Below are positions 9,951-23,373 of a stretch of DNA of 64,000 nt, one piece after another; within the stretch, counting starts at the first letter, position 1; each line of letters starts with the position of its first letter. Source of the stretch: Sphingopyxis flava. GTDB taxonomy: Bacteria; Pseudomonadota; Alphaproteobacteria; Sphingomonadales; Sphingomonadaceae. The stretch covers positions 124,001 to 188,000 of the forward strand of contig NZ_FUYP01000003.1 of NCBI RefSeq assembly GCF_900168005.1. The letters are read 5' to 3'. The notes beneath the pieces were generated by a model. It was given only the letters and a program-made list of their open reading frames with translations, was not told the origin of the DNA and did not search any database. Position numbers and translations under genes: made by a program.

Positions 9951-11791
9951 TATGCCTTTTCCTTCTCGATCTTCACCAAGAGTGCCTCGACCTCGACCTG
10001 CGCGCCAGCGACGGCATTGAGTTCGGCAACGATCCCGTCGAATGGCGCGATGAGGCTATGCTCCATCTTCATGGCTTCAAGCGTAAGCAATTTCTGTCCC
10101 TTGCTCACCGTCTCGCCCGCTGCGACATCTACCGCGATGATCTTGCCCGGCATCGGCGACAGGATCGTCCCGTCGCTCGCGGTGCCGCCTGCACCGCCAG
10201 CCGCACGCCAGGGCGTGAGCTGCCAGACTGCGCCGCGCTCGGCGATCAGCATCGCGGGCGCAGGCTTTTCGGCTCCCGGGCCATGAAGCCTCACATCGAC
10301 ACGCTTGCCATCGAGCAGGAACGGGGCGCTGCGCACCTCGGATGCATTAAGACGAAAGCCAGCGTGCTCGGAGCGCGGTACCATCGCCGTTGCAGCATTG
10401 GTGAGCGCCTGCTCGGACGGCATCGGCTCCGCGGTCAGGCTGTCGCCGTCGCGGCCGATCAGGCCGGTGTCAACCGCGCCCGCCACAAAGTCCGGGTGAT
10501 CGAGCGCGGCGATGAGAAAGGCCGAATTGGTCTTCACCGGCCAGATCGCGCTGTCCTCGAGCATCTCTTGCAGAAGCTCGCGTGCCTCCTCGCGATCTTC
10601 GCCATGGGCGATGAGTTTCGCGATCATTGGATCGTAAAAGGGTGAGACCTCGGCCCCTTCATAGACGCCGGTGTCGACACGGCCGAGATGTTCGGGAAGC
10701 TGGAACAGTTCAAGCATCCCGATCGAAGGCAGGAAACCCCTGGCGGGGTCTTCGGCATAAAGCCGCGCTTCCAGGGCCCATCCGTTGATCGCAAGCTCCT
10801 CCTGCGTCAGCGGGATCGGCTCGCCGCTTGCGACGCGAAGCTGCCATTCGACGAGGTCGACGCCGGTGATTTCTTCGGTCACCGGATGTTCGACCTGCAG
10901 GCGGGTGTTCATCTCCATGAACCAGATGCGATCGGCGCGCAGCCCCTCGCTCGCGTCGGCAATAAATTCAATGGTGCCCGCCCCGACATAGTCGACGGCC
11001 TTGGCCGCCCGAACGGCGGCGGCGCAAAGCTCGGCGCGCGTCGCCTCGTTCATGCCGGGGGCAGGGGCTTCTTCGATGACTTTCTGGTGTCGCCGCTGGA
11101 GCGAGCAGTCGCGCTCGAACAGATGGACAACATTGCCGTGGGTATCGCCGAAGACCTGAACCTCGATATGACGCGGGGTCAGAATATATTTCTCGATGAG
11201 GACATGATCATTGCCGAATGATGCCGCGGCCTCGCGCTGGCATGAGGCGAGAGCATCGGCGAAATCTGCCGCCGCATCGACTTTGCGCATTCCCTTGCCG
11301 CCGCCGCCCGCAACGGCCTTGATGAGGACGGGATAGCCAATTTTTGCCGCCTGCTCGGCGAGAAACGCCGGATCCTGATTCTCGCCCATATAGCCTGGTG
11401 TCACTGGCACCCCGGCGTCGGCCATCAGCTTCTTCGCCGCGTCTTTGAGCCCCATTGCAGTGATCGAGGAAGCTTTGGGACCGACCCAGACGAGGCCGGA
11501 GTCGATAACGGCCTGGGCGAACTCGGCGTTCTCGGAGAGAAATCCGTAGCCGGGATGGATGGCCTCTGCCCCCGAGCGCTTCGCCGCGGCAATGATCTTC
11601 TCGCCCACGAGATAGGATTCGCGCGCCGGCGACGGCCCGATATGCACAGCCTCGTCGGCTTCGCGCACATGCATCGCCTGCGCATCGGCATCCGAATAGA
11701 CCGCTATGGTCCTGATACCCATGGCCCTTGCGGTGCGGATGATACGGCAGGCAATTTCGCCGCGATTGGCGATGAGAAGGGAGGTGATCAT
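9950..11791 (-). CDS. Acyl-CoA carboxylase alpha subunit, probably 3-methylcrotonyl-CoA carboxylase
   Basis: A biotin-dependent carboxylase of 613 aa. It has a biotin carboxylase N-domain ([17 protein letters not shown]), an ATP-grasp with glycine-rich [11 protein letters not shown] and [13 protein letters not shown], and a C-terminal biotinyl domain with EAMKMEH (biotin on Lys575). Neighbouring mccB and an isovaleryl-CoA dehydrogenase at 17.5 kb make 3-methylcrotonyl-CoA the likely substrate (leucine breakdown). Propionyl-CoA or geranyl-CoA carboxylases share the architecture and cannot be excluded. Start ATG overlaps the preceding stop as ATGA. Confidence 0.92.
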
Positions 11792-18734: not shown

Positions 18735-18757
18735 TATCATAAGAATTATTTATGATA
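18735..18757. promoter_or_regulatory. Inverted repeat overlapping the LysR start codon
   Basis: TATCATAA-N7-TTATGATA is an 8-bp perfect inverted repeat in an AT-rich patch within otherwise GC-rich DNA. Its right arm covers the ATG of the LysR gene at 18752. It resembles a LysR-type operator (ATC...GAT half-sites, T-N11-A spacing). It may give autorepression and control of the divergent ivd gene 85 bp away. Binding is inferred. Confidence 0.5.
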
Positions 18758-19654
18758 AAACGTGCGCACATCCGGCAATTCCTTGCTGTCGTCGATGCTG
18801 GCAGCTTCACGCAGGCGGCGCTGCGCATCCGCGTCACGCAGCCGGCACTCTCGACCGGAATCGCGGAACTTGAAAAGCTCGTGGGCACATCGCTCTTCAT
18901 CCGTAACCGGCGTCAGGTCCGGCTGACGCAGGCCGGCGGCCGCTTTCTGCCGATCGCGCGCGACCTTGAACGCGGATTCCAGACCGCGGACGCATTTGCC
19001 GAAAACGCCCCGGTCCCCGCGAGTGAACTGAAGCTCGGGATCATCCGTTCGGTACCCGGCGAGCTGCTCCAGACCATAGTTCGGATCCTGCGCCCTGGCT
19101 TTTCCATCGAGCTTGTCGAGAGCCGCGATTCTGAGCTGCGCGCCGCGCTCGGCAGCGGTCGTCTCCAGATGGCGTTATTGCCGCTTCGTGCCGGCGAACG
19201 CGGTACGCATGTGACACCGCTCTATGAAGAGCCGCTCAGCTTGTTCGTCGCAGCAGACCACCCGCTTGCGGGACGTATCGAGGTCGCGCCCGAGGAACTG
19301 GCGGCCGAGACGATGATTGCGCGCCGCTCGTGCGAATTTCTCGACGCGACGAGCCGCTTCTTCACCCGCCATGGCGTACGCCCGCGCTTTGCGCTGCGCA
19401 GCGAAAGCGACCAGCGGTGCCTGCGTATGGTCGCGGCGGGAATCGGGATCACGACCGCGCCCGTGTCCCTCGCGATCGAAGGCGTCGTGCCGCTCGCGGT
19501 TGCAGGATATGATTTCCGCCGCGAACTCGGATTGCTCGTCGATCCTGCATGGAGCGGACTCGCGGGCGTTGCCCCGCGGCTCAGCGAGGCGATGGAGGCG
19601 ATCCGCGCCGCCGGCGCCGAATGGCGTACCGCGCGGGTTGACGCCGCGGCATGA
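18752..19654 (+). CDS. LysR family transcriptional regulator
   Basis: A 300-aa regulator. The winged HTH is at residues 1-60 ([36 protein letters not shown]), followed by the linker helix and a substrate-binding type effector domain (about 88-290). The effector cannot be told from sequence. It is divergent from ivd across about 100 bp and lies 82 bp upstream of cysD, so either leucine catabolism or sulfate assimilation could be its target. The inverted repeat overlapping its own start favours autoregulation. Start: ATG at 18752. Confidence 0.9.
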
Positions 19655-19736: not shown

Positions 19737-20642
19737 ATGATCGATACGCTGACTCATCTCGACCGGCTCGAGGCCGAGAGCATCCATATCATGCGCGAAG
19801 TGATGGCCGACGCGGTCAAGCCCGTGATGCTTTACAGCGTGGGCAAGGACAGCGCGGTGATGCTGCATCTTGCACGCAAGGCCTTTTATCCATCGCCGCC
19901 GCCCTTTCCCTTGCTTCACGTCGATACGACGTGGAAATTCCGGGCGATGTACGAGTTGCGCGACCGCATGGCCGCGGAGAGCGGCATGGAATAGATCGTC
20001 TATCAAAACCCCGAGGCGCTGGAGCGCGGGATCAATCCTTTCGATCACGGACCCTTGCACACCGACATGTGGAAGACCGAGGGGCTGAAGCAGGCACTCG
20101 ACCTTCAGGGCTTTGACGTGGCGTTCGGGGGCGCGCGGCGCGATGAGGAGAAGAGCCGGGCGAAGGAGCGCATCTTCTCGTTCCGCACCGCGAGCCACGG
20201 CTGGGATCCCAAGCGTCAGCGGCCCGAGCTTTGGAACCTTTATAATGCGAGGAAGGCAAAGGGTGAGAGCATCCGTGTCTTCCCGATCTCGAACTGGACC
20301 GAGCTCGACATCTGGCAATATATCGCGCGCGAGAATATCCCGATTGTTCCGCTCTATTTTGCGGCGCCCCGTCCCACTGTGATGCGCGATGGTCTGCTGC
20401 TGATGGTGGACGACGATCGTTTTCCGCTGAACGAGGGCGAAGTGCCGGCCCTGCGCTCGGTGCGCTTCCGAACGCTCGGCTGTTATCCGCTCACGGGCGC
20501 CGTCGAGAGCGAGGCGGCGACGCTTTCCGAAGTCATCCAGGAGATGCTGCTCACGACCACCAGCGAGCGACAAGGGCGCATCATCGACAAGGACGGCGGC
20601 GACGCGAGCATGGAAAAGAAGAAGCAGGAGGGGTATTTCTGA
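19737..20642 (+). pseudogene. cysD: cysD, sulfate adenylyltransferase small subunit, interrupted by in-frame amber codon
   Basis: CysD is the ATP-sulfurylase subunit that makes APS from ATP and sulfate, with GTPase partner CysN. Read through, the frame from the ATG at 19737 gives about 301 residues, normal for the family: PP-loop [40 protein letters not shown] and [13 protein letters not shown]. Codon 86 is TAG (19992-19994), inside GME[12 protein letters not shown]. Homologues carry Leu here (for example CELLVHKNPEG in E. coli), so TTG to TAG is a one-base change. Both flanks stay in one frame and are well conserved, so damage is recent or the base is wrong. The stop TGA overlaps the cysN ATG. 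Confidence 0.85.
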
Positions 20643-22543
20643 TGACCGACCCCATCTACGTCACCGACGCGCTGATCGCCGAGGATATCGACGCCTATCT
20701 CGCGCGCCATGAGCAAAAGTCGCTGCTCCGCTTCATTACGTGCGGCTCGGTCGACGACGGCAAGTCGACGCTGATCGGACGCCTCCTCTATGACAGCAAG
20801 ATGATCTTCGAGGACCAGCTTGCGGCGCTTGAAGCCGACAGCAAGCGCGCCGGCACGCAAGGGCAGGAGATCGATTTCGCGCTGCTCGTCGACGGCCTGG
20901 CCGCCGAGCGCGAGCAGGGGATCACCATCGACGTTGCCTATCGCTTCTTCACGACCGAGAAGCGCAAATTCATCGTCGCCGACACGCCGGGCCACGAACA
21001 ATATACGCGTAACATGGTCACCGGCGCGTCGACTGCCGATCTTGCGGTGATCCTGATCGACGCGCGAAAGGGCGTCCTCACGCAGACGCGACGGCACAGC
21101 TTCCTCGCGCATCTTCTCGGCATCCGTCACATCGTGCTCGCGGTCAACAAGATGGACCTCGTCGGATACGATAAGACGGTGTTCGACCGCATCACGCTCG
21201 CCTACCGCGCCTTCGCAAGCGAAATCGGCATCACGAACTTTACCGCCATCCCGATCTCTGGCTTCAAGGGTGACAATATCACCGCGCCGAGCGTGAACAC
21301 GCCGTGGTACAAGGGGCCGACACTCATCGAGCATCTGGAGAATGTCGAGCTTACAAGCGCGAGCGATGAGGCAAAGCCGTTCCGGCTGTTCGTGCAGTGG
21401 GTCAATCGCCCCAATCTCGATTTTCGCGGCTTCGCGGGGCAAATTGCGAGCGGCAGGGTAAGACCCGGCGACGCGGTTCGCATTCTCCCGAGCGGCAAGA
21501 CGACGACAATTGACCGGATTGTGACGCTCGCAGGGGATCTTCCCGAAGCCGTCGCGGGTCAGTCGGTGACGCTGACGCTTGCCGAAGAGATCGACTGCTC
21601 GCGCGGCGACGTGATCGCGGCGGCCGAGAGCCCGCCCGAGGTAGCCGATCAATTCGAGGCCACGCTCGTCTGGATGGCCGACGAGGCCATGATCCCGGGG
21701 CGCGCCTATTGGCTGAAGCTTGGGACGCAGACGGTCTCGGCGACGGTGCAGGCCCCAAAATATGAGATCAACGTCAATACGCTTGATCATCTCGCGGCCA
21801 AGACGCTCGATCTGAACGGCATTGGCGTGGTCGAACTGACAACCGACAAGCCGATCATTTTCGAAGCCTATGCCGACAACCGGACGCTCGGCGGGTTCAT
21901 CCTCATCGACAAGCTTACCAATGCAACCGTCGCTGCAGGGATGCTGCACTTCAGTCTGCGCCGAGCGCAGAATGTGCATTGGCAGGCGACGGACGTCAGC
22001 CGCGAGGCGCGCGCTGACCTCAAGAACCAGAAGCCCGCCTTGCTGTGGTTTACCGGCCTTTCGGGGTCGGGCAAGTCGACGATCGCCAATCTCGTCGAGA
22101 AGAAGCTGTACCGAATGAACCGGCACAGTTTCCTGCTCGACGGTGACAATGTCCGCCACGGGCTCAATCGCGATCTCGGCTTCACAGAGGCTGACCGGAT
22201 CGAGAATATCCGCCGCGTCGGCGAGGTTGCAAAGCTGATGACCGACGCCGGGCTCATCGTTATCACGGCCTTCATTTCGCCGTTCAAGGCCGAACGCGAC
22301 ATGGTGCGCGCTCTGCTTGCGCAAGGCGAGTTCTTCGAAATCTTCATCGACACGCCGCTCGAAGAAGCCGAGCGGCGTGACGTGAAAGGCCTTTACAAGA
22401 AGGCCCGGTCGGGACAGCTCAAGAATTTCACCGGAATCGACAGCCCCTATGAGGCACCGGCCAATCCCGAAATTCACATCGACACCACCCGGATCACGCC
22501 CGAAGAGGCTGCCGACCTGATCGTCGAACGGCTGCTAGGCTAA
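20642..22543 (+). CDS. cysN: Bifunctional sulfate adenylyltransferase large subunit / APS kinase (CysN-CysC)
   Basis: A 633-aa fusion. Residues 1 to about 440 form the GTPase subunit of ATP sulfurylase with [15 protein letters not shown] (G1), [12 protein letters not shown] (G3) and NKMDLVG (G4), followed by EF-Tu-like beta-barrels. Residues about 455-633 form the APS kinase CysC, with its P-loop [11 protein letters not shown] and the segment [16 protein letters not shown]. Together they activate sulfate to PAPS. The ATG overlaps the cysD stop (TGATG). The fusion (NodQ-type) is common in alphaproteobacteria. Its activity as ATP sulfurylase depends on CysD, which is interrupted here. Confidence 0.95.
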
Positions 22544-22629: not shown

Positions 22630-23373
22630 ATGGCGGAAAATGACGATCAATTGGCCGCGCGGCTCGCGGCGACGGCAGGCGAGATATTGCTCGACTTGCG
22701 CCGTGCGGGCGATCTGGAGGGCAAGGCGCTCGGGCAGGCCGGCGACGCGGCGGCGAACGCGATGCTGTGCCGCGAACTGCGCGCTGCGCGCCCCGGCGAC
22801 GGGCTGTTGTCGGAGGAAGAAAAGGATAATCTGACCCGTCTCGCGCAATCACGCGTCTGGATCGTCGATCCGCTAGACGGCACGCGCGAATATGGCGAGG
22901 GTCGCAGCGACTGGGCGGTGCATGTCGCGCTTGCGATCGACGGCATCGCGGCGGTCGGCGCGGTCGCGCTGCCGGGCCTCGGTCTCACGCTGACCTCTGG
23001 CGCGCCTCTTGCGCTCGCCAAAGCGAACAGTCCGCCAAAGATGCTTGTCAGCCGCACGCGGCCAGCGGCCGAGGCGGTCTTTGTCGCCGAAGCGCTCGGC
23101 GCCCAACTCCTGCCGATGGGCTCAGCAGGCGCCAAGGCGATGGCGGTCGTGCGCGGCGAGGCGGATATCTACCTCCACAGCGGAGGCCAATTTGAATGGG
23201 ACAATTGCGCACCCGTCGCGGTCGCAGCAGCGGCCGGACTCCACGTCAGCCGCGCGGACGGTTCACCGCTACGCTACAATAATGCCGACACCTATCTTCC
23301 CGACCTGCTTATCTGCCGCAAGGAATTGGCGTCTGATGTACTGCGCCTGGCGGCAGAATATTCGCCCGCGTGA
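22630..23373 (+). CDS. cysQ: 3'(2'),5'-bisphosphate nucleotidase CysQ
   Basis: A 247-aa inositol-monophosphatase-fold enzyme that removes 3'-phosphate from PAP, the by-product of PAPS reduction. Metal-binding motif WIVDPLDGTREY is near residue 78 and WDNCAPVAVAAAAG near 190; LSEEEKDN provides the first acidic cluster. It lies 86 bp behind cysNC, so it completes the sulfate activation operon. The start at 22630 is supported by the family N-terminus; the upstream RBS is weak. Confidence 0.9.
   Translation: MAENDDQLAARLAATAGEILLDLRRAGDLEGKALGQAGDAAANAMLCRELRAARPGDGLLSEEEKDNLTRLAQSRVWIVDPLDGTREYGEGRSDWAVHVALAIDGIAAVGAVALPGLGLTLTSGAPLALAKANSPPKMLVSRTRPAAEAVFVAEALGAQLLPMGSAGAKAMAVVRGEADIYLHSGGQFEWDNCAPVAVAAAAGLHVSRADGSPLRYNNADTYLPDLLICRKELASDVLRLAAEYSPA

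Follow-up and report, generated by a model that had tools for sequence, protein, structure and literature searches.

An amber codon within cysD of Sphingopyxis flava: a probable nonsense pseudogene of very recent origin, with an intact second cysD in the genome

The sulfate activation operon and its amber codon

The operon considered here lies in a window of 64,000 nucleotides of Sphingopyxis flava (C72:124001-188000), which forms part of a 119-contig draft assembly of 4,155,299 bases (completeness 100, contamination 0.14). Four genes follow one another on the forward strand: a LysR-type regulator (18752-19654; Pfam LysR_substrate and HTH_1), which keeps the same place in G008 and G016, the two relatives nearest in DNA; cysD, for the small subunit of sulfate adenylyltransferase (19737-20642); cysNC, for the large subunit fused to APS kinase (20642-22543); and a cysQ-like gene of the 3'(2'),5'-bisphosphate nucleotidase/inositol-phosphatase family (22630-23373). 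The cysD gene comprises 301 codons, its product ends in GYF, and its frame is interrupted by a single internal stop, the TAG at 19992-19994 (codon 86). With this codon read through, the protein matches the CysD model NF009214 over residues 4-301 at 523.3 bits, above the curated cut-off of 413 bits. It resembles the CysD of CysDN(C) sulfate adenylyltransferases (NF009214, TIGR02039) in its full-length match, its SVGKDS loop and the order cysD-cysNC-cysQ, and differs by the one amber codon, which deprives the gene of the uninterrupted frame of a CysD. The initial annotation of this DNA had reported the amber codon, conserved flanks on both sides of it and intact cysNC and cysQ genes downstream, and the sequence, the translation, the end-to-end model match and the two open frames agree with it in all these respects.

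The window cysNC encodes 633 residues and scores 1076.2 bits against NF004035. Its ATG overlaps the stop codon of cysD (TGATG) and a GGAGG motif ends 10 bases upstream, so that it may be translated independently of cysD; polarity from the stop within cysD may also lower its translation. The cysQ-like gene has a profile match, with a score against TIGR01331 (104.4 bits) that lies under the cut-off of 228.8.

Homologues had been said to carry leucine at codon 86, and they do so without exception in our comparisons: in all 31 other aligned CysD rows and in all 87 further loci, which comprise the 80 best genome-contig matches listed and seven loci from genus genomes, a few of them overlapping the 31-row alignment, and none of which has a stop within the match. 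The accompanying proposal, that a single base change turned TTG into TAG, holds only if the ancestor had TTG, which is the codon in 17 of the 87 loci and in four of 25 other genus-level rows (CTG in 16, CTC in five); it does not fit the nearest relatives, G016 and G008, which both have CTG. G051 and Sphingopyxis microcysteis, with about 96% protein identity to the window CysD, have CTC, and with these neighbours more than one mutational step may have been required. In the 14 window genes counted, TTG makes up 42 of 713 leucine codons.

Descent of the window copy and isolation of the stop

Judged by synteny and by the CysD protein tree, the window cysD is the vertically inherited, ancestral chromosomal-type copy. 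The locus is syntenic with those of G008 and G016; the protein, which is 94-96% identical to most genus orthologues, falls among 22 other genus rows (90/82) that are poorly resolved among themselves, and the product of a second cysD on contig C68 (see below) stands apart with G015 and G017 (100/95). Against eight rows, the dN/dS of the window gene ranges from 0.038 to 0.063 (0.045 and 0.047 for the nearest two), compared with a median of 0.052 and a range of 0.016-0.099 among relatives (78 pairs from 13 rows). At columns that are invariant in 22 genus rows, a set that leaves out C68, G015 and G017, the TAG is its only private change. With a normal dN/dS and the TAG as sole private change at these columns, the gene must have broken only very recently, unless the stop itself is spurious; it has no decay outside the TAG, and a sequence error would leave the same picture.

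A search of 80 genomes of the genus gave cysD matches in 74 (69 of the 70 of good quality), and a stop within the match was found in the window's own genome alone. The frame is thus broken here and free of stops in the other matching genomes, as in a nonsense pseudogene, and a stop common to the genus or conserved in it can be rejected. The short matches in G062 and G076 extend to contig ends. In G004, one match (C18) is cut by a contig end, and another (C12), in mid-contig, contains ambiguous letters and has its middle out of register, probably through an assembly fault.

The remainder of the window was compared with the same two relatives. For G008, 73 ORFs were compared and 47 had a match, the listed identities being those above 55%; 28 match at 70% identity or more by hand count. 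Stops occur in three of these; one is cysD, and the other two lie outside real genes, in a 5' leader and in a stretch that extends out of frame ahead of accD. For G016 the same threshold is reached by 14 of 56 ORFs, and stops occur in a single one of them, in a frame upstream of the cysNC start and outside any gene. Stop-bearing rows at 55-70% identity (five in G008, two in G016) look like shadow frames, going by the one of the seven that was viewed. The comparison with G008 and G016 turned up no further broken gene among those window genes that are well conserved.

When genome contigs were scanned with cysD, the top seven of the best 80 loci listed, at 91-96%, were six from Sphingopyxis and one from a MAG of the Sphingomonadales; these 80 loci include no further assembly of the species of the window, in a scan that may omit the window's own genome. 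A literature search on titles and the openings of abstracts found no cysD loss in Sphingopyxis, which the full printed record may still hold.

Further sulfate activation loci in the genome

Four places in the genome match PF01507: two cysD genes, one in the window and one on C68, a gene of the cysH type on C60 and, weakly, a site on C72. The gene on C68 (9597-10508) is intact, scores 515.1 bits against NF009214 and encodes, as read, 304 residues within a 305-residue ORF with a GTG start; its product and the window protein share 86% identity. An intact cysNC of 641 residues and a cysQ-like gene come after it. The initial annotation had suggested a genome search for a second cysD and had named an intact copy as evidence against its reading; such a copy is present. 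The stretch 1460-12735 of C68 holds this accessory cysDNC-cysQ operon together with a divergent LuxR-like gene (Pfam GerE, 19.2 bits, below the cut-off), a 2-oxoacid dehydrogenase-type acyltransferase, FAD oxidases and a flavin reductase.

Whether C68 belongs to the same genome was judged from its ends and its composition. Three other contigs of the assembly (C19, C57 and C25) contain its last 106-108 bases at 99-100%, which ties C68 to the window's genome, and the G+C content of C68 (0.634) is that of the window. Against this, its first 300 bases have no strong link to other contigs (the best is a 45-base match at 80%) and its tetranucleotides are less typical: typicality is 0.907 for C68 and 0.858 for C71, whereas pieces of the window lie at 0.945-0.970 and three further stretches of this genome at 0.953-0.977. 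Contamination is unlikely, given the low value for the assembly, the matching G+C and the end bases shared with three contigs, and we read C68 as accessory DNA of this genome. Since the tetranucleotide make-up of C68 and C71 is less typical than that of the other stretches examined, the C68 operon was probably acquired, and the C71 locus described below would have been acquired likewise.

Operons of the kind found on C68 lie on sphingomonad plasmids. With positions 7000-13919 of C68 as query, 443 plasmid records matched, each over less than 80% of the query; the highest-ranking among them is pABRDHK22 of Novosphingobium sp. EMRT-2 (NZ_CP039697.1). This plasmid has the same order (cysQ, cysNC, cysD, divergent gene), its CysD is 89% identical to that of C68, and its divergent gene, annotated as LuxR family, is 48% identical to the C68 counterpart; the flanks differ, with esterase and efflux genes on the plasmid and the acyltransferase and FAD oxidases on C68.

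A third cysNC, on C71, is intact (637 residues; 88% identical to that of C68 and 78% to that of the window) and is followed by a cysQ-like gene and an acyltransferase gene. Immediately 5' of this cysNC is GGGTACTTCTGA, apparently the final three codons of cysD with their stop, as in C72 and C68. Adjoining these bases, from about 11309 onwards, is the end of an element (11297-11546 for the 12 bases and the element end together), and the contig stops inside it. Four further places carry the element end at 95-98% and one more has part of it at 86%, and the transposase fragment of its copy on C60 is of the ISAs1 type (155.3 bits, cut-off 70). A third cysD was not found anywhere in the assembly, so that cysNC is intact at all three loci and cysD at one. 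From the 12 bases and the operon pattern, cysD appears to have been lost from C71 beside an ISAs1-type element; as the remnant consists of these bases and the contig ends within the element, unassembled DNA may yet contain a third cysD.

Reductase-type genes are present as well. The cysH-type reductase P0002 on C60 is intact (286.7 bits, cut-off 154), and sulfite/nitrite-reductase-type domains occur without stops on C60 and C27. C72 itself carries, roughly 45 kb away from the sulfate operon, a weak PAPS-reductase-type domain (C72:98930-99139; 22.5 bits, at the Pfam cut-off) in a 315-residue ORF (L004 904-1851). Since C68 holds an intact cysD and an intact cysNC together with a cysQ-like gene, the strain should be able to activate sulfate, and auxotrophy is not expected. 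The earlier suggestion of a sulfate auxotroph, or of the use of another sulfur source, is not supported by these genes; cysD does look damaged at two of the three loci, but with the C68 pair and the reductase-type genes in place the chance of a true sulfate auxotroph is vanishingly small.

Origin and meaning of the interrupted gene

Three readings would leave a working CysD at the window locus. The initial annotation had raised read-through of UAG and proposed a search for an amber suppressor tRNA. The frame downstream of the stop is indeed intact and under normal constraint, but none of the 44 tRNAs found by an Rfam search, all typed with ARAGORN, has the anticodon CUA, and the anticodons of tRNA-Leu(CAA) and tRNA-Gln(CTG) are the usual ones. 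The set lacks Ile(GAT) and Ala(TGC) and may therefore be incomplete; these two tRNAs usually sit in rRNA operons. RF1 (prfA) is also intact (498.6 bits, cut-off 423.25), and TAG is the ordinary stop of four of the 29 window genes checked. A suppressor tRNA or an altered code is accordingly rejected and a dedicated read-through is unlikely, with background read-through conceivable; with the stop also confined to one genome of the genus, it is very improbable that some full-length CysD is made here by near-cognate or suppressor reading. An ORF of 195 residues with a TTG start (20055-20642) follows the TAG, and might supply a re-initiated C-terminal piece that forms a working subunit with the 85-residue N-terminal piece. 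Such a split CysD would be unnecessary beside the intact C68 copy and would be based on a stop absent from every other genus genome searched; we regard it as extremely improbable.

The main rival is an error of sequence or assembly, with leucine as the true codon and a fully functional window operon. It would account for a TAG that is the sole private change at invariant columns and is unseen in the other genus genomes searched, the assembly is a many-contig draft, and TTG, one base away from TAG, does occur in relatives. Most genus rows, the two nearest included, nevertheless have CTG, and to turn it into TAG an error would have to affect two neighbouring bases; TTG is rare in the window genes counted; the well conserved window genes that were compared have no other break; and another cysD of the same genome, on C71, appears damaged too. 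On this evidence we consider an error rather unlikely.

We think it quite probable, from the comparisons of sequence above, that the window cysD is a recent nonsense pseudogene, tolerated through the second, probably acquired, cysD on C68. The ancestral-type gene would recently have gained UAG at codon 86, where translation would stop after 85 residues. The fragment keeps the SVGKDS loop, which we take to be the ATP-binding loop, and lacks the remaining 215 residues, so that no working CysD is expected from this locus. Sulfate activation would be kept by the C68 operon, with its intact CysD, its own CysNC and a CysQ-like protein, provided that these are expressed and suffice. Owing to this redundancy, both the amber change in the window and the apparent loss of cysD beside the insertion sequence on C71 could persist. 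The outcomes considered by the initial annotation (auxotrophy, another sulfur source, read-through or error) left out redundancy, and its list was incomplete in view of the intact C68 gene. The intact cysNC genes of C72 and C71 may remain in use, and their products may pair with the CysD of C68. Extending the pseudogene reading in this way leads to a more tentative one, possible but with the balance somewhat against it: a takeover caught early, in which the acquired C68 cysD is the only CysD of the cell and serves three CysNC in trans, the ancestral cysD having just been lost by a nonsense change and the third copy by an insertion sequence. In that case the cell would rely on accessory DNA, which may be borne on a plasmid, for a core step of biosynthesis.

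The stop is a real feature of the sequence, and not an unusual one; most probably cysD became a nonsense pseudogene only very recently, with another copy to cover its loss. Bacterial nonsense pseudogenes with a redundant paralogue are a known general kind, with which the present case shares a gene that is intact but for one stop and an intact second copy in the genome; what is additional here is the third locus, where cysD was apparently lost beside an insertion sequence. The window alone hints at a broken core pathway and the rest of the genome indicates that the break is probably covered, which makes this a clear example of a pathway gap that needs a genome-wide check before a phenotype is inferred from it. 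A real stop would mean that an ancestral gene was lost very recently from a genome that holds another copy, and would suggest that an enzyme may lose its subunits independently of one another.
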